DNA of 64,000 bases from Tetradesmus obliquus (Eukaryota > Chlorophyta > Chlorophyceae > Sphaeropleales > Scenedesmaceae): NCBI GenBank assembly GCA_030272155.1, contig CP126193.1:620001-684000 (forward strand), written 5' to 3'. The notes beneath the pieces were generated by a model. The model had not been told where the DNA came from and ran no database searches. It was given only the letters and a program-made list of their open reading frames with translations. Position numbers and translations under genes: made by a program. Positions 3,962 through 43,163 of this stretch are shown in pieces (positions within the stretch are counted from its first letter, which is position 1; every line of letters begins with the position of its first letter).

Positions 3962-5684
3962 TCAGGGGTCGGGGAGGCAGCACCTGCAGGCATCAACGCA
4001 GTTGCAGGCATCGATCTCATTCAATCTGCGCCATTGGGGGTTGTGCAGCATGCCTGGCAGCACTGGTGCTGTTTGCTGAGATGGAAGGCAGCAGTTTGCG
4101 CAGCGTGTCATGCCACTGTCGAGGTGGGCACATTAGCCATGCAGCACTGCAGGCCCGTCCCTTTTCCAGCATGCTCTGTTGCTGGTTTGCCAACCCAGCC
4201 TCCCAGCACAGCAATGCTGTGGGCCACAGCCTGCCACTCACACTGCATCTGATGGGTTGAAGAAGGTGCCTGAGTTGGGGTTGGGCCCTGCGTAACGGCG
4301 AACGTGTAGCAGTGTCAACAGGTCAGCAAAACACTCAACGTTAGCGACGACAGCGGCACTACTGGTGGCTAGCTGTGGTGCTGCAGGCAGCTGCCTGTGC
4401 TGCAAGCCCTGCCCATGGAGCAACCATAAGGTTTCCACACCGCAGCAATGCCTGACTCTGAATCATGCGCATTTGCTGCGTGACATGTACACAGTCCCAG
4501 CATTTGACGGTTGTGTGAGCCGTGTCTAGTCTTGATGCATTGGAAGTTCATCACAAGTGCCGCTGGTTGAAACCTTGTGTGCTGGCAGTGGTCACTAGAT
4601 GCCCTGCAACTCACACAGCGCCTTTGCAGGGTCGCAGTAGTATGTTTGAGCCCCAGGAGTGAGGGGGTCCGTGTCTCCACATGTGGGCATGGGCTGCAAG
4701 CGCAACGTGCAAAGCAGGCAGAGTTTAGTTCAAAGCTTGATCAACAAACCATTGCGTGTAACGTGTGCATGATGCAGCTGCAAAAGGCCAGTCGTTGAAT
4801 TTAATGTGCACGCACCTTTGAGTACAGCAACAGTCACAACACGCGGCTGATGTACAGCAGACAATGCATCAGTTCATCCTACCCGGCAGCATATCTTCTG
4901 TGATGGTGGCGAGGCCATGGCCTTGCGCTCGTCAAACTGCTTGCCAAACCCACACGTCACAGTCTGGTTGCCAGGTGTGATAGGGTCCATGTCGGTGCAT
5001 GTGGCAACCTGTGGGGACAGTGCCAATACACGCGTGTTGAGAGCGTGCCCCGATGGCCCTGCACAACTGGAGCAATATTTGCTGCTGCAATGCATCCCTA
5101 TGAGCCTCTCGTTGGCTCCTGACTGGGGTTCCCACTCCTCGTTGAGTGGAGCATGTAATGTAATGTAATGTAATGCATGCTATGGCATGTAAGTCTGCTG
5201 CTATCATATCACCACTGCAGATAGTGGGTACAGACTGTGGTGCACCCAGCATGGTGGTGGGCTGTGGCGTGCTGCTGCTTTTCTGGTGGAAAGTGGCAGG
5301 AGATCAAAGCTACTGCTGGTAGAGCATTCAAGAGGCAACGACGCAACAGATGTCAATGGCGTTCAACTGAGCTGCGCACGCTGCGCAACAGCTGTATCCA
5401 CTCACCAAACAACACCTGCATACGCAACCGCAGAAAGCAGAGGTGGCAGCTGTAAGTACACTCTTCTGAATGGGCAACAGATGAACGTGGGTCACGTCCA
5501 ACGCTGTCCTGCAGCTTGCTGGTGCAGTTGTGCTGACTGCTGCATCTACACAGTGGCAGCATGCTGGACGAATGCAGCTCGTGCCTTGCCACTTATGATT
5601 GCAATGCCGCCCTTTCATGACTGCCATGTTGTGCAGCACTGACAGCCGCATTGAAGCAAGCTGGGTAGTTCAACTACATGACGT

Positions 5685-5719
<35 letters not shown>

Positions 5720-7233
5720 TCATGTGCTGTGCACTCACAGGGTGTCTGATGGGTTCACTTCATCAGCTCCAGGCCTGAAGACAAGACCCTTGGCAGGATC
5801 ACCTGCAGCAGGACGTGATTCTTATTGATTGTGCCTAGTTATTACGCCTTTTACACTTCTTGTGTGTTCTGCTGCAAGTGAACATGAATGATCACTGCTA
5901 CATGGCACAGTGGTTGCAGTTGCTGTGGCGCAGATTATAATGAGCACTGTTCAACGACAGTGCAACAAAGGTCTGCAGTGCAGCTCGACTGTAAGCAAAC
6001 CCCAGGGTGCTTACAGTAGTAGTTCTGGTCCCCTTCCTTCTGTGGGTAGATGTCTTTGCATGTGGGGACCGCCTGCAAGCAGCAACAGCGGCAGCGCAAG
6101 CAGCCTCTATCAAGGATGTCTGGCTGACTGCCGTACAACCTATAGTTGCTTCATGCAGCAGCACCAAGCCCTGTGCGTGCGGCAAGCGGGCACACAGCAG
6201 ACCACGCAGCATAGCCATGCCACGCAGACTACTATGTGCTGGCAAGCCTGCAATGCTGGGTATCTGCATGGACCTCTGCGCCGATCTAACATGTGCTGAG
6301 CACGTTTATGAAGAGGCTGCAACTCACAGAGCAGCACGTAGCTGCTGTTGGCGGGGACACATTGTCAGAGGACATGTTGTAGGTGGTGCCATTGGCGCAG
6401 GTAAAGCGCTCCAGTGTGCCTGATGATGGGTCAACATCACCGCATGTAGCCCTCTGCAAGCGGCACCAGCAGCACGAGCAGTTCACACACAGGATGGACA
6501 CGTTGAGTCAGGCGATAGCTGTGTCTCGCTGACAGCAGGACCAGCGGCTCGCAGCGACAAACTGAGCAGCAGCAGCAGCAGCAGCAGCAGCTTGCTCAAC
6601 AGCCGGCTGGCAGTGCCAAGCCCTGCAGATACTTTGTGTCTCACGCCGGTAGGCAGCACAAACAGCTGCAGCAACCCTGTAGCTAGCACTGCTGTAGGCT
6701 GGCATCACAAACGTGTGTTGAGCAGGAGTGCTTGCACATCAGTGCACAGGCTGCGCCGCTCACCAGGCAGCACGTGGCGTCGCCAGGTGGGCCGGCCATG
6801 CCTGCATCTGGCTTTGGAACCAGCCCCTTTGTGGCGTCGCATACGTACGGCTGTGGACCGTCAAGGCTGCTGTCTGTGTCACCACAGGTTGATGCAGGCT
6901 GTGCATGGAGCAGCAACCAACGGTTTGAGACGTGGCAAAGGGGGGCAGATATTAGGTGGTTGCTCCCCCAAATGAGGTTGTTGCAAATGCGGCATTTAAT
7001 GAGGGCCTAGAGCTGATGATTTTGCACGGTGCACACAAGCACCTGAGCATAAGTTTCAAGACACAGATTGCAGCATCCAATAATGGGAGGGATTGTATCA
7101 TGCTGCATGCATACATTCATGCATGCACTCACGCATGCAAAGTGTTATCAGCGATCTGACAGTGTGGTGTGCCATGCTGTACAGAGCATCAACTCACCAT
7201 GCAGCACCTGGCAGCCAAGGACAGCAGCAGTAG

Positions 7234-7268
<35 letters not shown>

Positions 7269-10200: not shown

Positions 10201-13200
10201 GTCAAACACATATGTGATTCAGATGGGAGGGGAGAACTGCAGCATATGACACACAAGCATCACACGCAAGCGGCCAACAGCACGCAGACAGAAACAAGGT
10301 TGCCAGGCCTGGCCCTGCGTCGTCGGAGTGCCATGATGAATGCACGACTGCAGCCACTGTTCACAAGCCAGTTGCAAGCGCTTACCACGCAGCAGGTGTC
10401 GTTGCCGGGTGGTGTTGCCATGTCACTGTCTGGCTTGCGATTGTAGCCTGGCGGGCAGGTGTAGGGCTGGGCATTCGGCTCGGCGGGCGCTGTGTCGCCA
10501 CAGGTGGGAGGCGACAAGTTGACCTGTGTGTATGCAGGGCATGTCAAAAGCATAACTCGTGACAGAGAAAACATTGACCAGGTGTAACACAGGTTTTGAC
10601 AATGTTTGCAGGGTTATTAATCACCACACACAGCCACAACCGCAGCATACGCGTGATGCAGGATAGAATGATGCCAACAGACGGACAGCTCTCTTCTGAT
10701 GTGACATCTACGGTGCCTTTGAATCAACCCACCACGCAGCAGACACCATTGCTGGGGCTTGTGGCCATGCTGCTGCCTGGCTTGGTGCTTGAACCGGCTG
10801 GGCAAGCATACGGCTGGTCGTTTGGTTGCACTGGATCAGTGTCTCCGCAAGTAGCAGGCTTAGGCTGCATGTGCGCAAATACAGCAGGATCAGACACAGC
10901 AACAGCATAATCAGCACACTCAAGTCGCTGGAATTACGCAGCAAATGCAAGAGCCAGCGGCCTGGCTTGGCAGGCAAGAGAGCAAACCACACAACAGCTC
11001 CGAAACACTACCTCTCAACGCCATGTGCGGCATACCTGCTCGATGACACTGCTGCTGCACAGCTGCACGTGGCAGCCGTTCCTACCTTGCAGCAGGTATC
11101 GCTGCCGGGTGGTGTGGCCATGTCACTGTCTGGCTTGCGGTTGTAGCCTGGCGGGCAGGTGTAGGGCGAGACCCCTGGCTCTGTGGGCTTGGTGTCGCCA
11201 CAGGTGGGAGGCGTGATCACCTGTGCGTATGCAAGAGATACAACGATGCAGACTTTACGCTTAGGCAAACATATATGATTGGTGGACTATCTGCTGTGAT
11301 CATGTTCAAGGTAAAGCAATCATCTGTGGTATTTATGTAGCAGCTCCTTGTGCTTAGCGATGTATGCAGACCTAACCACCACCAGATGTGTCTTGTGAGG
11401 GGCTGTTGCACTGCATTGAACTCAATCTTTTTGGCAATGGCAGCATGCAAGACAACACGTTACGTTGCCTACACAGTAATCAGAACTCACCACGCAGCAA
11501 GCGCTTTCGCTGGGGGGTGTGGCCATGCTGCTGCCTGGCTTGGGGCCGGAACCGGCAGGGCACACATACGGCTGGTCATTTGCCTGCACTGGATCAGTGT
11601 CTGTGCAGGTGGCAGGCTTGGGCTGCACACGCAGTGAGACAGGCAGAGACAGCAGAACAGGTAGTCAGCACAAGTTTGATTCATGGCACCACTCACACGC
11701 CGAAAAATTACAAAGCATATGCAAGGTATCAGGGCCTTCTAGGCGATTGCTGGCAAATGCACCATCGTTCAAGTTCTGAGCACCGAAGAATAGCATGTGT
11801 GGCAGCGGCTGCATGCAAACCAAGTGCGTACCACGCAGCAGGTGTCGTTGCCGGGTGGTGTTGCCATGTCACTGTCTGGCTTGCGGTTGTAGCCTGGCGG
11901 GCAGGTGTAGGGCGAGACCCCTGGCTCTGTGGGCTTGGTGTTGCCGCAGGTAGGAGGTGTGGTCACCTGCGCGTGTGCAGGTCATACAGGAGGCATGTTT
12001 TACCAGGCCAGCTATGCTGGAAGGTGCACATTGCGCTGCGCATTGCTTGTGCCACTAACGTATTCTGACAAAACCCACAAACCGCCAGTTGTGCTGGCAA
12101 AGTAAACGGTAGCGCGTGAATCTCCTCAACTTTTAGTGTTGGCCGTATGTTGAAAGCCTACGCTACTGCCAGAGGGCCCTCACCACGCAGCAGGCGCTTT
12201 CGCTGGGGGGTGTGGCCATGCTGCTGCCTGGCTTGGGGCCGGAACCGGCAGGGCACGCATACGGCTGGTCATTTGCCTGCACTGGGTCAGTGTCTGCGCA
12301 GGTGGCAGGCTTCGGCTGCACACGCAGTGAGACGGGCAGAGACAGAAAGACGGAGGCAATCAGAGCTGAATCAATAGCACAGCATAGCTTACACTGCACA
12401 ACACCACAAACCTGAATTGACCTGTGAAAGGCCTGCACGTGCGAGCACTGCAAGTGCAGCCTCCTTCTACACAATCATAGAGTATCTACGTGCTGATACA
12501 TATCATGCTGCGGCTGTTGCATGTACTTAGCCTTGAAAGCAGTGCCTACCTCGCAGCAGGCGCCGTTGCCGGGTGGTGTGGCCATGTCACTGTCTGGCTT
12601 GCGGTTGTAGCCTGGCGGGCAGGTGTAGGGCGAGACCCCTGGCTCTGTGGGCTTGGTGTCGCCACAGGTGGGCGGCGTGGTCACCTGTATGTATGCAAGA
12701 GACACAAAGATGCAGACTTAGGCAAATATATACGAACGGTGGACTATCTGCTGTAATCATGTTCAGGGTAAAGCAATTATCTGTGGTTTTGATGCAGCAG
12801 CTCCTTGTGCTTAGGGATGTATGCAGACCTGACCACCACCAAATGTGTCGTGTGAGGCGCTGTTGCTCTGTAGTGAACTCAAGCTTCGTGGCAATGGCAG
12901 CATGCAGGATATCACGTTACGTTGCCGACACCCTAAACAAACTCACTACGCAGCAAGCGCTCTCGCTGGGGGGTGTGGCCATGCTGCTGCCTGGCTTGGG
13001 GCCGGAGCCGGCAGGGCACGCATACGGCTGGTCATTTGCCTGCACTGGGTCCGTGTCTGCGCAGGTGGCAGGCTTGGGCTGCACGCGCAGTGAGACGGGC
13101 AGAGACAGCAGAACAGGCTGTCAAAACAAGTTTGATTCATGACACCACTCACACACCACAACACTATAAAGCATATGCAAGGGATCAGGGCCTTCTAAGC

Positions 13201-16200
13201 GATTGCTGGCAAATGCGCCATCGTTCAAGTTCTGAGCACTGAAATACAGCATGTGTGTGTAGCAGCGGCTGCATGCAAACCAAGTGCGTACCACGCAGCA
13301 GGTGCCGTTGCCGGGTGGTGTGGCCATGTCACTGTCTGGCTTGCGGTTGTAGCCTGGCGGGCAGGTGTAGGGCGAGACCCCTGGCTCTGTGGGCTTGGTG
13401 TTGCCGCAGGTGGGTGGCGTGGTCACCTGCGCGTGTGCAGGTCACACAGGAGGCATGAGTTACCAGGCCAGCTATGCTGGAGGGTGAACACTGCAATGCG
13501 CATCGCTTGTGCCACCGTTGTATTCTGACATAACCCACAGACCGCTAGTTGTACTGGCAAAGTAAACGGTAGCGCGTGAATCTCCCCAACTTTTAGTGTT
13601 GGCCGTATGTTGAAAGCCTACGCTACTGCCAGAGGGCCCTCACCACGCAGCAGGCGCTTTCGCTGGGGGGTGTGGCCATGCTGCTGCCTGGCTTGGGGCC
13701 GGAACCGGCAGGGCACGCATACGGCTGGTCGTTTGCCTGCACTGGATCAGTGTCTGCGCAGGTGGCAGGCTTGGGCTGCACACGCAGTGAGACGGGCAGA
13801 GACAGAAAGATGGAGGCAATCAGAGGTTGGAGGCAATCAGAGGTGAATCAACAGCACTGCATAACTTACACTGCACAACACTACAAACCTGAATCAACAT
13901 GTGACAGGCCTGCCCGGGCGAGCACTGGCAAGTGCGGCCTCCTCTCACACATGCACAGCGTAGCTACGTGCTGATACATAGCATGCTGCGTTGCGGCTGT
14001 TGCATGTACTCAAACTTGAAAGCAGTGCCTACCACGCAGCAGGTGTCATTGCCGGGTGGTGTGGCCATGTCACTGTCTGGCTTGCGGTTGTAGCCTGGTG
14101 GGCAAGTGTAGGGCGAGACCCCTGGCTCTGTGGGCTGGGTGTCGCCGCAGGTGGGAGGCGTGGTCACCTGCGCGTATGCATGGCAACCAGACAGCACGCT
14201 ATGGGTGTTGCACACATGACAAATTGCTGATGTAATCCTTTCAGCAGGTGGTCTAGCCTAGTAGTGAGGTAGGGCCACCACCATAGGCGCGCATGCTTGT
14301 GCCAGGGCGTAATGCACGTGCACAGCTATCTGATTTGTGTAAGAGTAGCTGCGGTGCTTGACGAGTGCAGCTGGGCACATTCTTGGCTCCTGCTGAGACC
14401 CAGCATGGAACTATACCTGGCAGCAGGCAGCCTCGGTTGGGTTGATGGCAGTTGCACTGCCTGGCTTGGGCACTGTTCCGGTGGGGCACGGGAAGGGCTT
14501 GGGCCCGGGCCTGCTCAAGTCGGTGTTGCTGCAGGTGGGCTGCACATGCATCCAGAGTGGCAGGCATTTGATCATGGTCAGCTGTTAGCAGCATTGTGGT
14601 GTCCATTAGCCTTTTCTGATTCACTGAATTGCGATAGCGGCAGCACGGGTCCACCAGCTTGCTTGCTTTGCTTTGTCACTGTATCTTTCCACAACCTTTC
14701 AAGCTGTACGGTGTGACAATAAAAATCATATGCTGAGCCATTCAGCAACAGGGTACCACCCTCTTTGTGTCACAGAGCAAGTCGAGCGAAGAGCACCGCC
14801 TGTGCATTTCCGGCAAAAAAGGGCTCCTCTTACCTGAGGCTCCAAACACGCAAAGCAACAGCAAAAGCAAGGTCAAGGCTTCAGTGCAATCCTCACCAGG
14901 CAGCACATGTCATCTGACAAGTCTGTGACAGTCTCGCCGCTTGGGTCCAGCACACTCCCAGTTGGGCAGGAGTAGGGCTGTGCCCCGTTTTCAACACTGT
15001 TGGCATCAGCGCATGTGCCAGGCAATGTCTGCGGAGCATCAACGGAAACAGCAGCCACACGCTGTCAAGACAAAGCAGCTTGAAGAGCAGCCTTTGCTGA
15101 CAAGCCACAGCAACAAGCGCCAGCCATATGAAGTGGAGTGCCACAATGCTGCACCTGCAGGTGCATGCACACAGCCACGCCCACACAATATCTGCAGTTC
15201 TGCTTTCTGTGCATGTGCTGCGATGCTGCAAGGCATGGCTGCCACCAGATGCTGCAGCGTCTGCATGATCACTCACGCCGCAGCACACTTCCTTGCTTGG
15301 CGGGCTGTAGAATTCCTTCGAACCCAGGAAGACATGGCCTGACGGGCATGGGAACAGCTTTGGACCAGGCCTACTCAGGTCCCAGTTGCTGCAGGTGGCC
15401 TGCAAGAAGCAACAACACTCTGTTAGCCTGGCCCCGCGGCTGACACTTACTACTTGATACCTGGACACTAGAGAGCCACTGGTGCAGGCACTGCAAGGCT
15501 GAGCAGGGTTGAGGCCGCAGCATAGCGGCAACAGGGCAGGATACCTACCACGCAGCACTTGGCATCCGACGGTGGTCCAGCTGTGCTGCTGCTGCTGTTC
15601 ATCTTGCTGCCACGCGGGCACGTGTATGGCTGGTCTCCTGACTGGCCGACATCAGCGTCACCACATGTGGGCGTTGCGACAAGCTGCACGTGAGCACAGC
15701 AGACATACAAGGAACATTATTCTGGTGTTATTGCAGACAGTCTGCGTGCGCAGGACTGAACATTGAAGTTTTGGCATGTATGGCATGCAGGCTTTCTGAT
15801 ATCCGCTGCTGTACACTGTTCAGCATTTGCTCATGACCATGAATGTGCTGAGAAGCCCCATGGGCCGCATAGACCAGCTGCACTCAACATGGAGCCAGCA
15901 GGGGCCTGCTCACCACGCAGCAGGTGTTGTCGCCTGGCGGTGTTGCCATGGCACTGCCTGGCTTGGGGCCGTAGCCGCTTGGGCAGCTGTGTGGCTGCTG
16001 GCCATCTGTGCTGAGGTTTGCATCGCTGCAAGTGGCCTGCAGGAGCACCAGTACGTGGCGCAGCAACACAAGCGCAGCACAGCAAGAAAACCTCAAACGT
16101 GACTGATGAGATTGTACAGCTTTCCACGTTCAAACATACGTATCCAGATGCTTTAGTTCATGCTTGGTGAGCCACAAAGCACTTGCTGACCCCCTGCGCT

Positions 16201-19200: not shown

Positions 19201-22200
19201 TCAACGAGTGCTGTTTTCAGTACAGAATTACCGGATAACAGCAAGCAAGGGCCATACCAGTTTGCTGGTTGTTTGTAGCTGTGGCAAGGTGATGTGCAGA
19301 TCTGGCTTTCTGCTAGCGCTGTACGTGGGACATCCATTTCCAACTTTTGCGGTGCGGTAAATATAATACTCGGTGCACTGCCGCAGACCGGCTGTCAGCC
19401 TGGCACGCGGCTGGCAGCTGGTGATATGTTCAAGATCGACGCTGTGCTTGCTGCTCACCATTGCTCATTGCTGGGCGGGTTGACCAGGGCATTGGCAGGG
19501 TTGGCCTTGCCGCCTCCGGAGCAGACCCAAGGCTGCTTCAGAGGCATCCTCACATTCCTGTCAGAGCAGGTGGGCTGCATCGCGGGCGCAAATGTGACGG
19601 GCCAGAAGGGCACGATGATTGTCAGTGAGCTGTCGTGCATGGCATGCCACTATGGTGCTGCAACTGGCTGCAGCTGCTGCCTGTCACCATGGCTGGAGGG
19701 GATGCTTGTTCTGCAGCACGTGTCATAAGTTTTTATAGCCCAACCGCATGCATCACGTGCCCAATAACCCCTCTTCCCTGTCGCCAGAGAGACACAAACA
19801 GCCATTTTCTTCAGCCTGTGAACCCTCTGTCAGCTACTCACGAGACAGCAAGCTCTGTTGGTCGGTGAAGTTATGGTGGAGCCGCCTGGATTTGGAAGGT
19901 TCCCTTCGGAACACTGGAATGGCTGCTTGTCAGGCACGTCCAGGTTTACGTCTGCGCACGTGGCCTGCATTAGAACACCACAATGTCAATTAGTGCATAC
20001 CAACGCAACTAGCAGCAGCGCAGCAGTCAGGGAACACATAACAACAGCACAACACAGCCTAGATTCAAGTGATCATTGTTGGGGTATGTTGTACTGCTGC
20101 GTGTGCCAGTCCTCTTGCATGTGACGCGGTATCTTGCGTGCTGCTGCCTATGCTCCTGTGGGCGTGCAACTCACCCAGCAGCACCTGGCAGGATGATGTT
20201 GTAACAGAGTCGACGGCAGAGACAGCAGCAGCACAGCAGGAGAAGTGGCGTCAAACCAAGGGCAACAACACCAGCGTTGCGTAGTAAAACAGCTGTTGTA
20301 GGCGATGCAGCACAGCATAGCAGCAAGAAGACGCTACCATGCAGGCTAGCGCGTGGGCGTTGTTGAAGCAGCAATGAACGCTTGCTGTGCTGGACTAGTT
20401 GTGTCCTGTGCTCACTTTTTGACTGATGGCGGGCTGACCATGGCGTTGGCTGTGTTGGCCACCGTGCCGTCTGGGCATGCAAACGGCTGTGCGTTTGGTG
20501 CTGCTGTGTCCACATCTCCGCAAGTGGGCTGGGCCGCAACCTGTTGCAACCAATTCCATTTCATAAGCATTTGCTGAGCCGTGCTTTGCAGCTGATTGGG
20601 CCGGCACAGAGGAGCTGAATGGTGCAGCAACTGCTGCTTATGACTGGTGGCTAGCACCAGACGCAACCGATGCATGCATCATGCAGTAAAATACAGATTT
20701 AGAATAGCATTGCAGAGCGCAGCGGTGCCAAGGATGTGAGCTGACTACATCACGTTAGCATGAAACATGCGCACCATGCAGCAGGTGGTGTCGTTTGGTG
20801 GCGAGGCCATGTCGCTGCCAGGCTTGGCGATGAAGCCCGGCGGGCACGTGTAGGGCTGCTTGTCAGCCATGCTCAAGTTGCTGTCGCTGCATGTCGCCTG
20901 CATATGCAGCACAGGAGCGCATGGCGCCAGGGTAGGCAATGAAGTATGTGTTTTTTTGAAGAGAGGATAGTTACACGTGGACCCTGACACCGTCGTAGCG
21001 CAGGTATGAGCCACAACAGGGTGAACACATGGTCTGAGACCAAAAAATCAGAGAGGGAGCGCCCCAAAACACAATGCACACCCGTTCACTTTTAGAATCG
21101 TGAGCACCATCCTCTGAGACACTTCACAGCATAGGTGCGCCAGCTGCCCCGTTAGACCAGTAAGCAACCTGCACTCCCAGCCCCAAGGCACTCACCATGC
21201 AGCAGGTAGTGACGCTTGGCGGGCCTGCGGTGCCAGCATCTGGGTTGGGGTTGGTGCCATCCGGGCAGTTGAAGGGCTGACTGCCGGCTTCGGTGGTGTT
21301 GGCGTCATTGCACGTTGCCGGCGGGATGATCACCGCAGGCTGGAAGCAGCAGGACATTTACAACATCGCATTTGTGAACACAGGATGTGCGCGGCTCTGA
21401 TGTAAACCTTGCAACACATCAGCATCAACTGCAGCTGCGGCCAACTCTTTGACTATGCAGGGGTAGACAGTCTGTGACAGGTCATGCAAAATTGTGAGTC
21501 ATCATGGGAGCCTGCAGGTCTGCCATCACACCTTGCAGCATTTAAGAGCAGTTGGGTCGGTTGTCATTGCGTTTGGAAGGTATGGCTCCTGACCAGCAGG
21601 GCATGGGAAGGGCTTCGGGCCGGGCCTGCTCAGGTCACTGTTGCTGCAGGTGGCCTGCATGACACAAGCGAACAGCAGGCAGGATCAAAGGAGGCCACGC
21701 ATCACATGTGCACCTGCTATTATCAAGGTGCTTCAAGGTGTGCCAGCGCGCCATTGTCATACAGGCCTGCACCGGCCATGCACAGCTGGTGGCAAGTGCA
21801 GATTCAGCAGCAACTGGAACCGCAGCAGCTGCTTCAGCAAACCACTAATCACGGTTGAATAGTTACCCAGGGTTGGTTTTTAACTCACCAGGCAGCACTC
21901 CTCGTCTGTCAGGGTGTCGCTGCTGGCACTGGTGGGGTCGGCGGCACTGCCGGCTGGGCAAACGTACGGCTGCGCCCCCGGCTGGCTGCTGTTGGTGTCA
22001 CCGCAGGTGCCAGGCACCGGCTGCAGGGGCAGGCAGGCAGCAAAACAGCTGTCGTATGCCATGGTTGCAATGCGAGTGGGCCGCCTTGACCCATAACATG
22101 TGCAGCCGTAGTCCGGCATGCACAGCACACTCAGCTGCGTGGTGTTGCTGTAAGAAATGCTCTACATGTGTGCGCTAGGACCAGTGTGAGACGATGTAGG

Positions 22201-25200
22201 CAAAGCCCAGCTATAACCTGCTCAAAACAGCTTGCTCAGCCTTTGTTTGAGCAACTCACAAAGCAGCAGGCGTCCACGTCGGGGGGGCTGTACATGGCGT
22301 TGGCAGCATCCAGCACCTGCCCAGCAGGGCACGCGAAGGGCTTGGGGCCGGGCCTGCTCAGGTCGATGTTGCTGCAGGTGGCCTGCAGCCAGGCAGGCAA
22401 GCGGCAGGCAGGCGAGCAACAAGTCAGCAAGAAACCATTCAAACTAGGCTTCCCGCGAACATCAGCATGCAGGCAGGCACGCAGGCAGGTTAATTGAGGG
22501 TCATTTTGGCTGATCGCATGCCAGCTGTGCTGACATGCGCACATGGAGCAAGCCGTCTGAGCACATTGGACAACATCACTGCTGCTGCGAAAGCTGTCAC
22601 AAGGACACTTGCACCACTACTATCTGGCAAGAGGTCAGTGTGGTGACAAGCACAGCAGGCGGCACTCACTGAGCAGCACTCGGAGTCGGAGGGTGGGCTG
22701 CTGTCCGCATTGGTGCTGTCCACTGCACTGCCAGCTGGGCAGACCCATGGCTGGTCACCAGCCTGGGTGGCGTTGGTGTCACCGCACGTGGCTGCAATAG
22801 GCTGCAGGCAGTTGTAGGAGATCAATACAGTGGTCTGTTATAGATGTCTTACAAGCACACCGCGGTGATATGTCACATGTGTGGAAAGCATGGCAGCGCA
22901 AGAAGCATCAGCATCACAAGCAGCCAGCAAACGGCAACCCAGCAACAACACATTCCAGGTACAGGCCGCTGTATCTCATACTCTGTAAGCTCATGACAAT
23001 ACGATCACTGCTGTTGCGTATCAGCAGTGTGAACTCACCACACAGCAGGTGTTCTCGCCGGGTGGTGTTGCCATGTCGCTGTCTGGCTTGCGGTTGTAGC
23101 CTGGCGGGCAGGTGTAGGGCGAGACCCCTGGCTCTGTGGGCTTGGTGTCGCCGCAGGTGGGAGGAGTGGCCACCTGAGCGCACAGGCAAAAAAGCATGGA
23201 CTACCGTAATTCATCATGTCTCAACAGCACTAACTGGTGATGTTGCTGCAGGCACTGTTGCTGTCATTGCAATGCACATCTGTTGTTACTGTATGTGACA
23301 TGCTGCCTGAAGAAGTGGTGCTGACTCCCGTCAGCAAGTAGCGCGCTCCAGCAGTGATGAACAGCAATGGCAATGGTTATCGTGAAATGCATCTTGTTCA
23401 CGAGCCTCACACATGCTTACACTATTCTGGTATCGCACCTTGCAGCACACGGCAGCGCTGGGGTTGGTTGCCATTGCAGCACCTGGCAGAGGCTCCTGCC
23501 CAGCAGGGCACGGGAAGGGCTTGGGTCCGGGCCTGCTCAGGTCGATGTTGCTGCAGGTCTCCTGCATGTGCAAGTGGCAGGCACAGAGGCAGCATACACT
23601 CAGCAGATAGCTTGGCCACCGGGCTGCGCAAGCACAGCAACCTCCGTAAACAAGAACAGCTCTCTTACAGCGCATTACTGTTATAACATTGTTGGCAAGT
23701 CTTGGCAGAGCTGCAGTATGCAGCATTCTGCCTGCCACTCACCATGCGGCATTCTGCCTGCCACTCACCATGCAGCATTCGGCATCCGAAACATCGGCAC
23801 TGCTGGCGCTGGTTGGGTCGGCGGCACTGCCGGCTGGGCAAACGTACGGCTGCGCCCCCGGCTGGCTGCTGTTGGTGTCACCGCAGGTGCCAGGCACCGG
23901 CTGCAGGGGCAGGCAGGCAGGCAGGCAGGCAGGTAGGCGGGCAGGGAGAAACTTGTTGCAGCCGGCGGACGGGTGCAGCGGATTGACTACAGATTGGAGA
24001 AGATTAGGAGCTTAGTTTGCTAACACATAAGAAGATTCATGGACTCCTGAACATCAACATCGCTTGCATGGGACACATGTTTGGGCCGATATAATAAACA
24101 GGGAGGCGCGGTGGCGTGCCGTCATGATCAAGTCCAGATTTTCGCCTTAGCCATTTTGTCAACGACCCAAAGTAGCCCAGCGGCTCAGGCGTACCGCTCA
24201 GGTGCATGCAAAGGTTCTTGTTTCAAGCTGTGAATAACTTACAGAGCAGCATGCGTCTACATCGGGGGGGCTGTACATGGCGTTGGCAGCATCAAGCACC
24301 TGCCCAGCAGGGCACGCGAAGGGCTTGGGGCCGGGCCTGCTCAGGTCGCTGTTGCTGCAGGTGGCCTGCAGCAAAGCAACAGGCGCGCAGGCAGGCAGGC
24401 AGGCAAGCAAATGTTTCAGCAGCCGACAAGGGAGCATGAGTCGCGAACATGTTGACGTGGCAGGGCGGTGGGCGGCAGGACCCTCCAGCACCAACAGGGC
24501 CAAAACACGTTGAAGGTATCCAGGCTGCAGCGGCTTGGCAATGCCGCGGCATGCTCATTGCTTACACAAGCACAACAAACGCTGTACATATCAGGTAGGC
24601 AAAACTACACTTGACAGGGAGCATAGTGGGTAAGCCGCCATCTACCTTTGCTCAGTGACCACACAGCAGGCGGCACTCACCGAGCAGCACGTGTCATCGG
24701 AGGGTGGGCTGCTGTCCGCACTGGTGCTGTCCACTGCACTGCCAGCTGGGCAGACCCATGGCTGATCGCCAGCCTGGGTGGCGTTGGTGTCACCGCACGT
24801 GGCTGCGATGGGCTGCAGGCAGTTGTATGGAAACAGCACATTGGATTATACAAGAGAAAGCACTGCACATCATGGAGTAAGCTAGCCAACAGCATGAATC
24901 CACTGACAGGATCCTGTTGGTTTATTAGTCAATGCTCATGTTGGGAATCAATGACGCTTGATCACTTGCTGCAGCCATTCAGGCATGACAGTCGCATGCA
25001 CTCACCACGCAGCAGGTGTTTTCGCCGGGCGGTGTTGCCATGTCACTGTCTGGCTTGCGGTTGTAGCCTGGCGGGCAGGTGTAGGGCGAGACCCCTGGCT
25101 CTGTGGGCTTGGTGTCGCCACAGGTGGGAGGCGTGCTGGCCTGTGATCACATGCAGAGAAGGATTTGCAGCCGTATGCATAGAATGGCTGGACAGCGCAA

Positions 25201-28200
25201 CCAGCAAGCGGTTGCGACAATGTTTAAAAATTGCCTGCAGCGTTTGATGTGATGCTTTGGCAACGCTGGTGGGAAAGTGCTTCAGGCATGCTGGGGCCTG
25301 TTGTACAAACCGATTTTTTCTCGCCGTGGCTGCTACTGGTGCGGCTGCTGTGCTGCTGTGCTAAGGATGCCTTGCTGCATGCATGTGTGCATAAATTTTT
25401 CTCACACTGCACGCCCGCGGCATGTTGCCAGAGCTGAGGCTCGTTGTGTTGGTGGAACATAAAGCGCATATGCCAGCAGCGGTACAGAAGATAGTGGGCT
25501 GCATCAGGACTAGCACAATACAACATCCTCTCAGCACTGTCCGCCCAACAAGAAAGCTGCCGCACCTTGCAGCACACGGCAGCGCTGGGGTTGGTTGCCG
25601 TTGCAGCACCTGGCAGAGGCTCCTGCCCGGCGGGGCATGGGAAGGGCTTGGGTCCGGGCCTGCTCAGGTCACTGTTGCTGCAGGTCTCCTGCATGTGCAG
25701 GTGGCAGGCACAGGAGCAGCATAGACTCAGCATTCAGCTTGACCGCCAGGCTGCGCATGAACAGCAGCCTCTGTAACCAAGAACAGCTCTCTTACAGCGA
25801 AGTACTGTTATGAACAGTCTTGGCCAGTCTTGGCAGAGCCGCGCGATGTAGGTGCGCTGCTTGATGTGGGTTAGTCCGTCTTATCGGTCTTAGTTTTGTG
25901 AGCGATGAATGAAGGAAAGGATTGAAACTATTGGGCTAGCAAAGCTGCAGAGCTGTGTATTCACACAACTGTGATCAACCATGGCAGTCTTGTTTGTAAA
26001 TAGCAACCTGATCATGGCCAATGATTCCGCCCACATGCACAGCAGCATCTATTCCTACCACCAAGTATCACATCACAACCACTGCACAGATCATACAGCT
26101 GCTTCAATTATTCACAGAGCATGCCACAATCTGCCACTCACCATGCAGCATTCGGCATCCGAAACATCGGCACTGCTGGCGCTGGTTGGGTCGTCGGCAC
26201 TGCCGGCTGGGCAGACGTACGGCTGCGGCCCAGGCTGGCTGCTGTTGGTGTCACCGCAGGTGCCAGGCACCGGCTGCAGGAGCAGGCAGGCAGGCAGGTA
26301 GAAAGCACGCATGCTGTGTGAAGCTGAAGCAGGTAGGCATGTTTTCCTTGAGCATTGTTTATCAGTGGGTAAACAGGACTAAATGCTGGCGAGGCAGCAA
26401 CATAACTGTGTTTTAAGCAACTCACGGAGCAGCAGGCGTCCACGTCGGGGGGGCTGTACATGGCATTGGCAGCATCAAGCACCTGCCCAGCAGGGCATGC
26501 GAAGGGCTTGGGGCCGGGCCTGCTCAGGTCACTGTTGCTGCAGGTGGCCTGCAACAAGGGAGAGAAGCAACTTGGCATGCGGGCAAATCATTTAGCAAAG
26601 AGGATTGGTGGCAAGCACGCTGACTTGGCATGGTGATAAGCGGCAAAACATGCAAGGACCTCCAGAAACGAGACATCTCAACAGCATGCTGGCTGCAGCA
26701 GCATGTGCTAGTGCACTGGATCATGCTTGCTGCTTCAAAAAGGCTTTTCAGAGGCATTCTCACATGTATTCTCAGCGCTCAGCACACAAGGCAGGCAGAA
26801 CCCGACACTTCACAGAGTAGAGAGTGCGTGAGCAGCCTAGTCACTTTGACCGGTGAGGATCCACAGCAGGCTTCACGCACCACGCAGCACTCGGAGTCCG
26901 TGGGTGGGCTGCTGTCCGCATTGGTGCTGTCCACTGCACTGCCAGCTGGGCAGACCCATGGCTGGTCCCCAGCCAGTGTGGTGTTCACGTCACCGCATGT
27001 GGCTGGAGGGGGAGGAGGCGGGGCGATGGGCTGCAGTTGAGATAGCAACACACAAAGTGTCTAAGTAGATATGCTGGATCATGTGGGCAGCGACATACAG
27101 GTAAGCACAGCCTTGCCGCGGCTTGCTGCATCAGTTGCGCAATATTACTGTTGACATTCAGCCACAGGGCTCAGGGAGAGATTGAGCGCCACGCCTATTC
27201 ACGCTGCTCTGAATGCTTGCTGAAGCGCTTACATGGTCCACCCTCTGTAGTGCATGTTCTGCTGCAATAGCTGCTGCTGAAGCAGTTACGTGCACTCACA
27301 GCGCAGCAGGTGTCGTTGCCGGGTGGTGTAGCCATGTCACTGTCTGGCTTGCGGTTGTAGCCTGGCGGGCAGGTGTAGGGCGAGACCCCTGGCTCTGTGG
27401 GCTTGGTGTCGCCACAGGTGGAAGGCGACAAAGCCTGTAACAAATATAGCATGTTGCCTTTGAAATGTTTGGGCATTTCCTCTTATGTCGGCACTCGGTG
27501 GGCGTAAATCAGCTGTGCTCACAAGCAGCGCTGCTGCTTTGAAGGCATCAATGTGTTTGCTGCCTCATCACCATCCTGCTTGATACAGCCAGCATGCTGC
27601 TGCTGTAGAGAGTGCACACCGCCAAACTTACCACGCAGCAAGCAGCGTCGCTTGGGGGCGTTGCCATCTCACTGCCTGGCTTAGCGCCAGAACCGGCAGG
27701 GCATATATGGCTCTGGTTGCCAGTTTGGTTGATGTCTGTGTCTGAACATGTAGCGACGTTGAGCTTGCAGCAGCTGCAGGCAAGGCACGGGAAGAGCCAC
27801 ATCAATGTGGGCAACATGGTGCATCGCTGCCCTTCTGTAGGTGTGTGGACAATCGTATGGTGTATGCTGCAGTGCAATGCAGAGACTGGGCAGCTGGCGC
27901 TGATTGCAGAAATAGGCTGCTGTATTATGGCTGCCTTGTGCAAGCAAGTAGTCAAAGCCAAAGCGGTGTGCTGTGTGCACACTCACAGCTCTCTACTTGG
28001 AGGTCCCTCGTTCGCCTTGCTGGCGTCAAATGTAGAGTTGCGTGGGCACCACACTCGTTGCTGGCCAGGCTTAAACGGGTCATAGTCAGCACACGTCTTC
28101 CTCTGCAGTCATGATGCAAGTGCATGTGTTAGTCGGTGGTTGTGCAAGCTTGCAGCATAGGTGCAAGTACCAGCCAGCCTGCAACAGCAATCAGCTGACT

Positions 28201-31200
28201 ATGCACACCCTGAGGCTGCAGTGCGCTGCGTGAATGTGCAGCGCCTGCAACAGCATTCAGCTGACTATGCACACCCTGACGCTGCAGTGCGCTGCGTGAA
28301 TGTTATCGAAAGGCGCAGGAGCCTGGGGAGCTTGCTCACCACGCAACAGACTTCCAGAGACGGGTTTCCTGCAAAGCTATTGTTCTGGTTGACGAGGTAT
28401 CCCAGCTCTGGGGGGCAGATGAAGGGCTGGCAGCCTGGAGTGTTGGGGTCAGTGTCTGCACAGCTCCACTTGGGCTGCAGGCAGCAGGAGCAGGAGCAGC
28501 ATGCCCATCAACTGAATGGATTTCTACACATGCCGTGAGTGCGAGGGTCACTGAAGTAGGTTGCAGCAAGCGGATATGCATGATTTGCAAACCAGCTGGA
28601 CCACACCAACAAGTCCTGCAAGCGCACACAAGCGACGTTGTTTTCTTCTTTTGTGACAATTCACGTAGATAGGTTGGTTAAGCTGACGTTTTCAAGCGTA
28701 TATGACACAACTGGCTGTTGGCGATGTCTCAAGCTATCAAACAGCTCGACATCTGTGAGTGACACAAGCCTTTGGAACTGCATGCAAAACCAGGCTCTCC
28801 ATCACACGCGTAGCATAAGCAACCATAAGTTTGTCAGCATGTGCAAGGCGTGCTCGTGCAGATGTGGTAAGCGGCAGTAGCGGCGCCCACCATGCAGCAG
28901 ATGCGAGGCGAGGGAGGGCTGTAGTCGGACATGTTGGTGTTGACCACCCAGTCGCCAGGCGGGCAGGGCTGTGCCTGGTTGCCTGGCGTCAATGGGTCGA
29001 TGTCGGCGCATGTGGTGTTCTGCGCACAGCAGCAGAAGCAGCACGGCAAAGCAGAGTTGGAGAGGGACAGGGGAGTTGCTGAGAGACAGGCAGCTGTAGC
29101 ACACAGGCTTTCAGCAACTATATAGAACTGCTCCGTTTAGTGCAGTAGCAGTTGCCTTGCTCTGTGTTTTCCCGTTCTCAAGTGCTTTGCTGGGTCGGGC
29201 TACTTGAGTATGCTCTGTTCATGCTGTGGGCACAGGCATAAGAGCATCCTATCACTCACCAGGCAGCAGTTCTTCTGTGATGGTGCCATGGCTGCGCTGC
29301 TTGGATTGAAGACAGAGCCAGTGCAGCACTCGAAGCGCTGCTCCAAATCAGCCATCACATCAATGTCAGCGCAGGTGGCGCTCTTGGCCTGCAACCGCAA
29401 GGCATTCGGCAACCAGGCACCTCACAAGCCAATTGGAGCTACAAAGTGCACTCAAACAGCTGCACTGACCCACTTGCATGCAGCTGAGACCCTGACGTGG
29501 CATGTTTGTGCTGCGGGATTTGTGTGCGGTTTACCTGGGGTTACACAAGCAGGTGAGCAGAATATGCAGCCCGGCAGTGGGGTGCCTTACCACACAGCAC
29601 ACGCTGTCAGTTGGAGGCCCTGCCATCTCGCTGCCAGGCTTGGGCATGTAGCCGGCAGGGCAGGGGAACGACTGGTTGCCTGGTTCGACAGGGGAAGTGT
29701 CCGCACAGGTAGCCGGCGCCTGAGCCGGTGCCGGCTGCAGCGTCACAAGCACCGCACAGCACATGACAGCAGGTCAGCGAAGGCACCGCACCCTCGCTTG
29801 TTCATAAGAATGGCTGCAAATGGGCAGATTTTGCTGTGTCCTTTCAAGCACTGCATTAAGCGGAATGGCTTGCTGCAGGTGTAGCATGCTGCCAGCAAGT
29901 TTGCAATAAGATGTGGTTGAAAGCAGGCCCCAGGCTCACCTTGCAGCAGAGGTTGACAGTCGGGTTGGTTGCCATCGCATTGATTGCCAATGGCTCCTGG
30001 CTTGCAGGACACCTGAACGGGTTGGGGGAGGGCCTGCTCAGGTCAACGTTGCTGCAGGTGGGCTGCAGGGCCGAAAAAGGCAGCAAGCAAAAGGAGATCG
30101 GGTAGTGTGTCAGCAAGCAGCCACCTGACAACAAGACAAACAACGCCTGCTGGACGATGCCTGCTAAATCTTACACAGCGCGCCACCAGCTGGGGCACAA
30201 CCTCAAGCTATGCAGGGGAGGCGGCATAAGACAGCACAGTATGCTGGTAACCAACACAGCACCATCACTGCAGAAGATATGATGGTACGTAAGCTCACCA
30301 AGCAGCACGTGGAATCTGATGGCGGGGTTGCACTGGACATTGTGGGATCTGCCACACTGCCAGGAGGGCAGCCATAAGTCTGGTTGCCTGGCTGGGCTGG
30401 GGTGTTGTCGCCACATGTGGGGGCAATGGGCTGCAACAAGGGCAGCAGCAAGGGAACTAGTTGTTTTGAGACATCCCTGACTTGACCCCAGGCGGCGGGT
30501 GCAAGCTGCGCACTTCTTACAGCCCACGTGTTGTTGACATGCATAGATGCTGCCGGATTATTGACATGGATAAGACCAGGCAACGAATGGCAAGTAATGA
30601 GCCACATTTGAGGCGGCAGACGAGGGCATTGCCTGTGCGCAAGGATGCAATCATCTGCATACAACAACCACAGCACACCGCCCGGTTGCTTGTTTGGACT
30701 AAGCTTCTGCCAGTGCTTACAGTGCAGCAGGTGTCGTCCCCTGGGGGTGTGGCCATGGCCCTGTCTGGCTTGAGGGTAGAGCCAGCAGGGCACGGATACG
30801 GCTGGGCGCCTGAGTCTGCAGGTAATGTGTCTCCGCAAGTGGGGGCAATGGACTGCGAGCAGATGGGACGGCGTTGCGACAGCAGCAGGTGACAGTGCAC
30901 ATGTCAGGGCTAGGGAAGTTGCATTTCGCTTGCAGCTCGTGCAAGCACGTGGTTTCAGCACTGCGGATAGGAGCTTCCGGTTTGTGCAGGTGCGTGCAGC
31001 GTCCTGTCTGCAGCAGCAGACTTTGCTACTGCCGTGAGAGCAGCGATCATCCACGTCTGTGCTCCGCTTTGATGCTTCAATAAAGTCTTTATATGTGCAA
31101 AACATAGCGGTGTTTATTACATGTGGCAGCTTGCTCAAGCACCTACTGTCCATCGACGATCGCGAGCTGCGTTGGTTTGAACGTCAGGACTTACGATAGT

Positions 31201-33412
31201 TTCTGCTGTGCTTACTCAGCTTGCGGGTGAGCGGTATCCGACATTGATCAATGCTATCGGCTTGTGGATATAGAGTAGCGCTTGAGCTCACCGAGACCTT
31301 GCAGCTCAAAAAGACCTGGATAACACAGTCATAGCTCAGCAGTGAAATCACATGGTCAAAACCTGTCGAGTTGATCTTGGCGATTGACCAAGATTCGTTT
31401 ACCAGTCCTTTCTTACCCATGCGATGCAGCCAGCAGTATTGTAGGCACCAAAAACCACTGGCTCCTGGCTGCATATCAGCCTGCTCTGCAAACATGCTTC
31501 CAAGTGGCTGAACTGCACGCGTCTGCTGTGTCCCTCTCACCTTACAGCATGCTTCATTGCTGGGTGGTGATGCTAGCGCGCTAGCATCGTTGAAGGCAGT
31601 TCCAGCAGGGCAGGACCAGCGTTGTGCTTCAGCAGTAACCAAGTCCATGTCGCTGCAAGTGGGCTGGAGGCAAGCAGCAGGGAGGAGACACCATATCAAA
31701 TTCAAAAGTAAAACAGGCATGCCAGTAACAGCCGCCACAAGGTGGCTGCGTGCGTATGTGAGATGCTGTCAAGTATGTGCTGGGGACGACAGCGGCAGCA
31801 GGTCAACGTTGCACTGCTGCATGATCACCATACCAGGCACACAATGCTGACATTGTATAATGCCTGCTGTTGCCAAGAGTGGCATCCCTTCAGCATTTTG
31901 TGCAGCTGCAGCTCCAGCCACTCACCAAGCAGCACTTCTCTGCAGTAAGGGTTGAGGAAACAGACTCGTTGTTGAACAGTGTCCCAGTAGGGCACTTGAA
32001 TGGCACCTGCCCACCACTGGCCAAGTCCGTGTCCTGCAGAGCAATGCCAGGAGGCCGTGAAGCTGCTGCAAACAAGCAGTAGTCTTTGATGCACTTTACT
32101 TGCTGCTGTGTACTTTCTGCAACGCTGCGGTACGGGCATGTCCTTCAACGGCATGACCAGCGCCCACATTTGCACAGCAGCAGTTGCTGGCAAGCAGTGC
32201 CAGCCTGAAGCAGTGACGTACCTGGCATGTTGCTATCTCCTGACCGCCAATCTTGCAGACGTACTTGGGCAGAGAGATGTCACACGTCTGCCCTGTACCC
32301 GGGTATGGGCCACCAAGTGCAGTCTTGTCAGTCCACCAGTATGTTTTTTGGGGATCATTCGGCTGAGGGTTGTAGTAAAAGCTGCGCGGCAGCAGCAACA
32401 GCGATGCGTCCCAAAGCAGCAGGCACGTCAAGCAGGACAGGGTGCAGCAGCAAGGCGCTGTGTCTCATATCATCACCTATCTCACATGAACAAGCCTTGG
32501 ATGAGACAGTTGGCGGCAGCAGTCGTGCTTGCAGCAGTTATTCTACATGTTATCACATGAATTGCTTTGAGTCGCAGCAGTGACATGCGGCCACTTGCTT
32601 CTTGCAGCTGTGCTGGTGCTGGGGACGCACAGTGCACATGCCTGTGGGGACGCACAGGTACAGCAGCAGCAGCTGCTGGTTTCGCTCGCTGCTTTGCACC
32701 TGCCTCTCCTCAATAGAGCGTGTGTGTGCGCCTCACAGCCATTTGCACTCACGTCAGCACTGGCTCTGGCCATCCGGCAGACACGCAGCACGCCCTTGGG
32801 TCTGGCGACTCCTTCACACTGGAGCCCATGGCCAGGTAGTCAAACCCAGTGCCGCTGCAGGGTCCATCGCTGCAGGTGGGCACTGGGAACACGCCAGTCA
32901 TGGCGCTGCCCTGGTACTTGGGCTGGCCCATGGTGCAGCACGCGCCATGCACAGCCTGCAGGCACACAGGGCACTGCTGGTTACAACATTTCCTGGCGCT
33001 AGGCAGGCCGACAGCAAATCCAAGAGATATAGAATCGCGGTGCCGGCTGACTGTGTGAACTGGTAGTGCAGTGCATTGCAGCTGCTGCTGACCACAATCA
33101 GGCAATGTGAATCCACAGCAGAATGTTTGCAGTTGCAGCCGAGCCAAGCCAGCTGTGCCTCTCATTATCCGGCTACAGTTGGTCTGCGCTGCTCAAGCAG
33201 GTGACTTTATTGCAATCATGCATCAGCATTGCATCATGGGCATGCCTCTGGCCTTGAGGCACAGTATCAGCATGAGCACAGCTGGCGCTGCAGCCTGCTG
33301 CCTCATCGACTGCTGCTGCTTGTGCCACTGCTGCTGCAGCAGTCAAGCCCAAGCTCACCGCTGGCAACCCCAACAAGCCTGCCACCAGCAGCAGTGGCAG
33401 CCACTGCTGCAT
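3962..33412 (-). CDS. Giant secreted protein of 68 tandem four-cysteine modules
   Basis: I could follow one reading frame from a signal-peptide exon (ATG at 33410-33412) through 77 exons to a stop at 3962-3964: 9,282 nt, 3,093 residues. After the signal peptide and a head come 68 modules of about 41-50 residues with the pattern T-C-x-D-x-[DN], an aromatic-x-C-P-x-G core about 15 residues later, P-P-S or similar, then C-C plus one residue. Most exons are exactly one module bounded by phase-0 introns (acceptor ...TGCAG; donor GTGAG, GTAAG, GTAGG or GTGCG). Exon lengths fall in classes of 123, 126, 129, 132, 135 and 138 nt, and all phases agree. The signal peptide and the cysteine density (about 4 per 42 residues, so probably two disulfides per module) point to secretion or the cell wall. 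That is inference; I do not recognise the module as a named family. It could instead be several adjacent genes, but I found no second start exon with a signal peptide and no internal stop in the spliced frame. Confidence 0.8.
5096..5175 (+). mobile_element. 3'-terminal fragment of a LINE-like (non-LTR) element, copy 1
   Basis: About 78 bases are identical to the reverse complement of 34866-34943. The fragment contains the last codons of an apparent frame (PYEPLVGS, stop), a short 3' stretch (actcctcgttgagtggagca), and a tail of four TAATG repeats. A simple-repeat tail after a severely 5'-truncated body is typical of non-LTR retrotransposons. It lies in the intron between micro-exon 5406-5415 and exon 4883-5008 of the Cys-module gene. 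The sequence aatgcat appears at both edges and may be the target-site duplication. The clade cannot be named from so little. Confidence 0.55.
5406..5415 (-). CDS. 10-nt micro-exon carrying the CC of module 66
   Basis: On the minus strand GTATGCAG is followed by GTGTTGTTTG and GTGAGTGG. One base completes a Leu codon left by exon 5739-5802 (CT|G), then TGT TGT TTG encode C-C-L. The codons differ from the TGC TGC used in the other micro-exons, so this copy has evolved under coding constraint and is not just a recent duplicate. Confidence 0.68.
7198..7207 (-). CDS. 10-nt micro-exon carrying the CC of module 63
   Basis: On the minus strand GGCTGCCAG is followed by GTGCTGCATG and the donor GTGAGTT. 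The first base closes the split Lys codon of exon 7483-7598 (PPSRE, AA|G). The rest encodes C-C-M in phase 0 before the exon 6764-6898. A CTG triplet tract lies about 35 bases upstream and may act as the pyrimidine-rich tract. Confidence 0.7.
8940..14167 (-). repeat. Cys-modules 46-60: alternating A/B dimer array
   Basis: Exons in coding order: 14033-14167 A, 13644-13775 B, 13292-13426 A, 12947-13078 B, 12550-12684 A, 12184-12315 B, 11832-11966 A, 11491-11622 B, 11086-11220 A, 10733-10864 B, 10386-10523 A, 10057-10188 D, 9679-9801 C'', 9280-9414 A, 8940-9071 B. Type B contains DPVQANDQPYVCPAGSGPKP. Similarity continues through the introns: the stretch around 11,366-12,780 is repeated about 1,455 bases further on (12,821-14,2xx), so a four-exon unit was duplicated. 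Bases 9,280-9,558 and 11,086-11,364 are almost the same, including about 145 bases of intron. Confidence 0.85.
14417..17695 (-). repeat. Cys-modules 36-45 (mixed types)
   Basis: Exons: 17573-17695 (C), 17267-17401 (A), 16971-17102 (D), 16583-16705 (C''), 16223-16357, 15914-16036, 15549-15683, 15277-15399, 14897-15028, 14417-14539. The first four repeat the order C, A, D seen in the higher-order repeat further upstream, with a C'' variant (GRVAPKPFQC) in place of C'. The A-D-C'' triplet recurs at modules 56-58. The remaining modules are single and diverged. Introns are 150-360 nt and carry no recognisable element. Confidence 0.8.
17884..21339 (-). repeat. Cys-modules 27-35 (divergent centre of array, two split modules)
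   Basis: Exons: 21196-21339, 20775-20897, 20416-20540 plus micro-exon 20175-20184, 19842-19964, 19459-19574, 19043-19169, 18636-18773, 18314-18439, 17884-18015. Module 29 ends at PPSVK with two bases of a codon; the missing base and the CC-W triplets lie on a 10-nt exon. Module 31 ends after NPPSNEQ with two bases TG, and the next exon begins C-TGC-TTG, so the CC pair itself is split between exons and runs straight into module 32 (LPTCADTD). All phases fit. These modules are individually distinct, in contrast to the homogenised blocks on either side. Confidence 0.78.
20175..20184 (-). CDS. 10-nt micro-exon carrying the CC of module 29
   Basis: On the minus strand the site reads CCTGCCAG, then GTGCTGCTGG, then GTGAGTT. 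One base completes the Lys codon left open by the previous exon (20416-20540), followed by TGC TGC TGG. Without it the module would lack its CC pair. With it the frame passes cleanly into the exon at 19842-19964. Confidence 0.7.
21532..27434 (-). repeat. Cys-modules 12-26: five-module higher-order repeat, three copies
   Basis: In coding order the fifteen exons are A D C' D' C, three times over. Copy 1: 27300-27434, 26881-27030, 26426-26548, 26142-26273, 25566-25688. Copy 2: 25006-25140, 24681-24812, 24243-24365, 23769-23900, 23439-23561. Copy 3: 23039-23173, 22670-22801, 22260-22382, 21889-22020, 21532-21654. Type A contains GYNRKPDSDMATPPG; D contains QPWVCPAGSAVDST; C' contains VLDAANAMYSPPDVD; D' contains QPYVCPAGSA with E-C-C-[LM]; C contains LSRPGPKPFPCPAGQEP. 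The spacing of A modules is 2,294 and 1,967 bases. Copies of one type are almost identical while neighbouring types differ, so whole five-exon blocks were duplicated recently. The D module at 26881-27030 has a short poly-proline insertion. Confidence 0.85.
27632..32033 (-). repeat. Cys-modules 1-11 (divergent, N-terminal end of array)
   Basis: Exons in coding order: 31926-32033, 31541-31663, 30721-30852, 30299-30430, 29940-30062, 29591-29734, 29260-29388, 28891-29019, 28340-28474, 27987-28102, 27632-27773. These modules differ clearly from one another, which suggests age. Module 7 has an extra cysteine (FECCTG) and module 9 carries PGCQPF. Module 10 stops at PPSRE plus two bases of a split codon. 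Its CC pair is at the start of the next exon, where after a TGCAG acceptor the sequence reads one base, then C-C-K-L-N-V-A-T-C, opening module 11. This exon pair therefore shows that the intron can move to just before the CC. Intergenic-sized introns (about 680 nt) lie on both sides of module 2-3. Confidence 0.8.
32222..33412 (-). other. N-terminal head: signal peptide and two non-modular exons
   Basis: Exon 1 (33359-33412) encodes MQQWLPLLLVAGLLGLPA, a hydrophobic signal core, and joins in phase 0 to exon 2 (32753-32955), which starts AVHGACC; cleavage after VHG is likely. Exon 2 has CC near both ends (ACCTMGQ and PRACCV) and an internal CSDGPC, so it resembles an enlarged, divergent module. 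Exon 3 (32222-32381) is unlike the modules: it is aromatic and proline-rich (FYYNPQPND, TYWWTDK) with a CDISLPKYVC segment, and it ends IATCQ. That end supplies the first cysteine of module 1, whose own exon (31926-32033) starts DTDLASGG. The head may carry the protein's specific function or a processing site, but I recognise no family. Confidence 0.72.

Positions 33413-43112: not shown

Positions 43113-43163
<51 letters not shown>

Follow-up and report, generated by a model that had tools for sequence, protein, structure and literature searches.

The gene and its splicing

The window is the whole 64,000-nt stretch of DNA that was analysed, positions 620001 to 684000 of contig 3 (C3:620001-684000) in the 104.66-Mb, 17-contig genome of Tetradesmus obliquus. 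It contains, on the minus strand, a gene model in which 77 exons and 76 introns combine into one open frame (Table 1). Upon rebuilding the product exon by exon, a spliced coding length of 9,270 bases was obtained, which corresponds to 3,089 residues, and not to the 3,093 initially given, with the sole stop codon at the end. AG/GT borders were found at 76 of 76 introns, the size of which ranges from 149 to 688 bases (median, 248.5). Phase 0 is used by 67 introns, and 60 of the 75 internal exons are phase 0-0 symmetric. While 29 introns have a length divisible by three, none of the phase-0 introns combines such a length with an open frame. The original prediction had proposed 77 exons in a single frame closed by a stop, and both the exact splicing and the selection described below bear this out. 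The signal peptide that it placed at the start corresponds to a signal-peptide-like stretch which we recognized by eye in exon 1; a similar start, MGNSQQWLTLLVAAGALLL..., precedes the paralogue at C3:729k. Exons 2 (32955-32753) and 3 (32381-32222) encode a cysteine-rich N-terminal domain, and module 1 begins before the end of exon 3.

Table 1. Coordinates of the module gene within the window, and of related places in the genome (C, contig).
Feature	Position	Strand	Basis
Whole coding region, 77 exons, 3,089-residue product	3962..33412	-	Single open frame, AG/GT at 76 introns
Exon 1, ATG and signal peptide MQQWLPLLLVAGLLGLPA	33359..33412	-	Signal peptide judged by eye
Exons 2 and 3, N-terminal cysteine-rich domain	32222..32955	-	Domain recurs at ten other genome places
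Modules 8-9, A-B pair (first copy)	28340..29019	-	70% identity clusters
Modules 12-26, five-module block CDEFG three times in tandem	21532..27434	-	70% identity clusters
10-base microexon carrying the CC of its module	20175..20184	-	Pattern and splicing rebuild
Modules 46-56, C and H alternating, recent tandem duplication	10386..14167	-	70% identity clusters
Modules 61-68, C-terminal block	3962..8490	-	Order shared with the contig-15 paralogue, 6 of 8 reciprocal best
10-base microexon, CC	7198..7207	-	Pattern and splicing rebuild
10-base microexon, CC	5406..5415	-	Pattern and splicing rebuild
Exon 77: last CC, LPDP, stop	3962..3983	-	Splicing rebuild
Module places at E <= 1e-4	C3 at 540, 570, 603-613, 730-740 and 872-878 kb; C8, C9, C13, C15		Own-genome search
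N-terminal domain upstream of modules	Window; C3 at 615, 729 and 871 kb; C9 at 4957, 4979 and 5000 kb	Same as modules	Own-genome search

The module and the properties of the protein

As had been claimed, 68 modules of one C...C...CC layout were counted in the rebuilt product. The layout is C-x14-C-x(about 20)-CC, and the consensus reads C-x-[DN]-x-[DNK]-x8-[YFW]-x-C-P-x-G ... P-[ST]-x3-CC. In all 68 modules the second cysteine lies 15 residues from the first and position 3 is occupied by D or N (54 D, 14 N). The third residue past the second cysteine is G in 60 modules, P is found five residues before the CC pair in 63, and the number of cysteines is four in 65 modules and five in the other three. 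The claim of one module per phase-0 exon stands for 59 modules; each of the remaining nine is either divided between exons or does not have its exon to itself. For three modules the CC pair is carried by a 10-base exon with the pattern G-TGY-TGY-NNN (3 observed versus 0.02 expected in 200 shuffles), and two more modules are joined to the next one via phase-2 introns (27987/27773 and 19459/19169). We scanned the window with a module profile built from 46 module exons. It yielded 67 minus-strand stretches of at least 29 bits versus a single plus-strand stretch of 8.2 bits, a scan that is partly circular, 46 of the 68 modules being its own input.

Successive modules are separated by linkers of 3 to 12 residues (mean, 5.3). 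The predicted product, of 313 kDa before modification, contains 283 cysteines, 16.0% proline and 37 N-glycosylation sequons, has a pI of 4.16 and ends in CCLPDP. One module was modelled with AlphaFold2 using 46 sequences (mean pLDDT 85.9, pTM 0.52); the model has one short helix and is almost devoid of regular secondary structure. When it was submitted to Foldseek, two matches were obtained, the best of them with an E of 9.3 and neither of them significant.

Duplication and selection within the gene

Clustering at 70% identity groups the modules into eight repeated types. Three copies of the five-module block CDEFG follow one another in modules 12-26, two types (C/H) alternate along modules 46-56, and the A-B pair of modules 8-9 appears again as modules 61-62. 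The segment 14180-12538 aligns with 12697-11074 at 90% identity over 1,652 columns, introns included. The gene is a clear example of a giant protein assembled exon by exon, in which modules can end on 10-base microexons and the duplication of blocks is still visible.

Selection was measured on 22 mutually disjoint pairs of module exons, the two exons of a pair being of equal length and closest in sequence; pairs that were identical or had a pN above 0.35 were left out. In frame, pN/pS was 0.38 (pS 0.28, pN 0.11, Fisher p 1.4e-25), and in the other two frames of the same DNA it was 1.23 and 1.35. When all 194 usable pairs were considered, pN/pS was below 1 in 95% of them, with a median of 0.57. 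Purifying selection thus acts on the module exons in the frame of the gene model only, which indicates that they are translated in that frame, or were until recently.

A family of paralogues in the same genome

The own genome was searched twice at the protein level, and the match counts are lower bounds. The first search gave at least 144 matches at E <= 1, the window included (147 of 185 candidates scored), and the second search at least 123 under the same threshold, again with the window (150 of 168 candidates scored). At E <= 1e-4 the module is present in the window and in at least nine other places, and weaker matches lie on contigs 5, 1 and 14. The N-terminal domain gave 19 matches with E below 1e-3, which correspond to 11 genome places including the window; in seven of these 11 it is located upstream of, and on the same strand as, module matches. 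The window gene is therefore a member of a family that is spread over its own genome.

The paralogue on contig 15 is informative with respect to the one-gene model. Ten modules by pattern, and eleven by profile, are found there within one stretch, free of stops and 604 or more residues long, which directly shows that modules are encoded as one chain at that place. We compared the order of its modules 10-17 with that of window modules 61-68. Modules 10, 12, 13, 15, 16 and 17 are reciprocal best pairs of window modules 61, 63, 64, 66, 67 and 68, that is, six of eight in the same order. Module 11 favours window module 9 over 62 (155 versus 151), module 9 being the duplicate partner of 62, and the best match of module 14 is window module 34 and not 65. 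Also on contig 15, at 354-361 kb, a paralogue carries a tandem unit of 952-953 bases with four modules, present in about seven near-identical copies.

In paralogues on contigs 3 and 13, the modules come after Ser-Pro rods that span tens of residues. The paralogue at C3:607095-610266 has a further repeated domain between its Ser-Pro rods, the resemblance of which to a prealbumin-like fold is weak (below the cut-off; SpaA_4, E 0.003). Two copies of the N-terminal domain were found at C14:1745973-1746287 and C14:1708878-1709192, with no module detected nearby by the module searches; they are possibly stand-alone secreted proteins.

Taken as a whole, the splicing, the selection, the ten-module single-exon paralogue and the matching order of the C-terminal modules back the model of one gene. 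The alternative to consider is that the 29 kb are divided among a number of shorter transcription units, or are read from different starts, each giving a shorter module protein. Intron 4 contains, at position 31720, an ATG from which a hydrophobic stretch runs in frame into exon 5; the protein may therefore also exist in a shorter form. Moreover, TGTAA is the poly-A signal in related algae; the gene contains 25 copies of it, and the 1.2 kb past the stop contain none. Nevertheless, 76 introns, none over 688 bases, fit one frame, the N-terminal domain and the C-terminal block occur once each and at the gene ends, and a partial check of internal starts showed, besides 31720, none that is in frame into a module exon. 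We consequently regard the alternative of shorter units as unlikely.

Searches for relatives of the module

The prediction that the module corresponds to no described family agrees with all the domain, structure, viral, phage, plasmid and bacterial libraries that we searched. Pfam gave no match for 744 residues of the window protein, and none for 46 modules taken singly, except a disordered-repeat model for one of them (E 0.039). Nothing above cut-off was found in Pfam for the N-terminal part or for the Ser-Pro and C-terminal domains of the paralogues; neither did NCBIfam match the N-terminal 216 residues, nor a PDB sequence search the N-terminal part. A plasmid search gave no match, and a literature search, mostly without full text, found no paper naming such a module.

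Some candidates were considered and rejected. Designed C2H2 zinc fingers in the PDB matched the module profile with E values of 7.5e-7 and 3.2e-4 summed over repeats, but the best single stretches reached an i-E of only 5.9 and 2.7; the match was discarded as being due to CP-x-G composition, without the histidines needed for a CxxC and HxxxH zinc site (histidine is 0.1% of the window protein). Three mycobacteriophage places (E 0.3 to 0.7) were not significant. One Pseudomonas place (52% over 31 residues) was judged to be a chance match, since its best profile score is 12.5 bits and it also overlaps, in another frame, what by eye resembles a biotin-synthesis gene. In viral contigs, 14 and 28 stretches matched the pattern and none was confirmed. 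The module family is thus absent from the domain libraries searched, and no convincing relative was found in the Pfam, NCBIfam, PDB, viral, phage, plasmid or bacterial collections. The organism collections among these are viral, phage, plasmid and bacterial, so relatives in other algae are very likely.

The chitin-binding domain model CBM_14 (PF01607) was matched by module 1 only, below threshold (E 0.012; 16.2 bits versus a cut-off of 22.1). This match would fit a protein in which each module is a small carbohydrate-binding domain, the whole chain being a multivalent polysaccharide binder, for instance of the glucosamine polymers of the Scenedesmus wall that are mentioned in the accessible part of PMC11839794. 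Yet no carbohydrate-binding model was matched in the 744-residue stretch or in the 46 modules scanned singly (module 1 is not among them), and the fold search gave no significant match, which makes such a binder distinctly unlikely.

Comparison with known wall and cysteine-rich proteins

GP1 and the pherophorins, hydroxyproline-rich glycoproteins in the wall and matrix of the Volvocales, are likewise secreted and modular, with cysteine domains and Ser-Pro rods, and such rods are found in the paralogues of the window gene. In contrast, the window gene consists nearly entirely of cysteine modules with only short proline runs. The pherophorin domain (PF12499, DUF3707) was matched neither in the 744 residues, the N-terminal 216 residues or the 46 modules nor in the paralogue parts. 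One single pherophorin-domain match was obtained in this genome, hence the pherophorin family is small here; 14 control genomes gave none, which says little because those named are prokaryotes. Judged by long Ser-Pro or polyproline rods, the window protein falls outside the hydroxyproline-rich glycoproteins: PPPPPP occurs in it once, and an (SP)n rod is lacking.

Animal matrix proteins of the EGF-repeat type share with the window gene the arrangement of one small disulfide module per symmetric exon and the long tandem arrays. EGF exons are phase 1, whereas the module exons of the window are phase 0; the module has four cysteines in C-x14-C-x20-CC and not six, and no EGF match was found by Pfam in the 744 residues and 46 modules.

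The secreted cysteine-rich repeat proteins (SCREPs), a descriptive class and not a homology family, are secreted proteins with tandem cysteine-rich domains, a description that the window protein fits by its signal-like start and 68 modules. According to the accessible part of PMC6262176, the class was built mainly on venom-like domains; the domain types given there do not include the module, and the top repeat numbers named are 8 and 12, versus 68 in the window protein.

In the maternal wall of S. obliquus, two cysteine proteins have been listed, KAF6261957.1 (2,214 aa) and KAF6264072.1 (741 aa), both large, secreted and with EGF-like Prosite marks (Table 3 in the accessible part of PMC11839794). 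The likeness to the window protein is one of description only: large, secreted, wall fraction and probably a related alga. About 0.1% of 156,706 spectra were assigned in that Scenedesmus obliquus wall proteome (same part of PMC11839794). A predicted tryptic digest of the window protein gave only 36 peptides of 7-30 aa, the longest fragment having 193 residues, and with so few usable peptides the protein could escape wall proteomics.

Proposed role

We propose, with a probability of about 0.68, that this nuclear gene of a Scenedesmus-type alga encodes an acidic protein that is secreted and made of 68 disulfide-stabilised beads in a chain, with a structural role in the wall or matrix. The one spliced frame, the signal-like start, the 68 modules, the selection, the genome family and the Ser-Pro fusions are seen directly in the DNA; function, expression and one full-length transcript are what we infer. 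The anatomy of the protein (secreted, acidic, with four-cysteine beads, short linkers, fixed ends, a duplicating middle and Ser-Pro kin) fits a structural strand of this kind. The wall, adhesion or matrix role suggested in the original prediction gains strength from the paralogues in which the module is combined with Ser-Pro rods, and it would still be a proposed role. Counting against our reading are the TGTAA pattern, the ATG at 31720, the mismatch of modules 11 and 14 on contig 15, the pTM of 0.52, the near absence of regular secondary structure in the AlphaFold2 model and the lack of a long Ser-Pro rod in the window gene itself.

Each module would close two disulfides and form a small protease-resistant bead, and the short linkers would give the chain the stiffness of a filament. 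Its anchoring ends may be the N-terminal domain and the last eight modules, which are conserved, with the repetitive middle as a spacer whose length would shift by block duplication. The acidic C-x-D-x-D starts may bind calcium, and glycosylation together with interchain disulfides could knit the chain into the wall.

A bolder version, which we hold to be improbable, is that of a length-tunable matrix ruler. As 60 of 75 internal exons are symmetric, bead exons could be skipped or included; skipping would give variable chains between fixed ends and set wall thickness or the spacing of colony cells, with lengthening in evolution by block duplication. The family would then be the main matrix family of its lineage, as pherophorins are in the Volvocales.

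A precursor cleaved into many free cysteine-rich signalling or defence peptides, comparable to animal multi-domain secreted repeat proteins, would fit the near-identical repeated modules, the secretion signal and the high cysteine content, but is very unlikely given that a dibasic pair occurs in only 2 of 67 linkers (any Lys or Arg in 22 of 67) and that relatives fuse the module to Ser-Pro rods.

Little is known about the wall proteins of Scenedesmus-type algae, even though wall toughness, the shape of colonies and flocculation bear on both ecology and algal harvesting. Cysteine synthase is more abundant in flocs of Scenedesmus subspicatus, and disulfide-rich extracellular proteins have been suggested by the authors for induced flocs, none being named in the accessible part of that study (PMC7220994). 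The window gene and its relatives are concrete candidates for such proteins. In a green-algal matrix review, a term search of the accessible text gave 0 occurrences of "cysteine" and "disulfide" (PMC10762512).

Other features of the window and the genome

Further matches were observed on the minus strand of the window. A stop-free stretch at 59760-60326 matches Bac_rhodopsin (E 3.4e-9), 48868-49587 matches Response_reg (E 6.6e-6, below the cut-off) and 47984-48727 matches Guanylate_cyc (E 3.5e-7). Together, the stretches between 47984 and 60326 probably form a single light-sensing rhodopsin that carries a kinase relay and a cyclase, which we take to be of the type known from Chlamydomonas. An SBP transcription-factor domain lies at 42287-43735 (E 3.5e-9).

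Fragments of mitochondrial cytochrome oxidase were found inside nuclear contigs, at C6:76024-76742 and C13:2010572-2010844. The code of such fragments points to a Scenedesmus-type green alga as the likely host. In-frame TAG is present in cytochrome-oxidase fragments of this genome at six, two and three places, and one fragment also has TGA. When TAG is read as Leu, the longest stretch has 213 residues, with six TAG, no TCA and seven other TCN serine codons; this is the Scenedesmus mitochondrial code.
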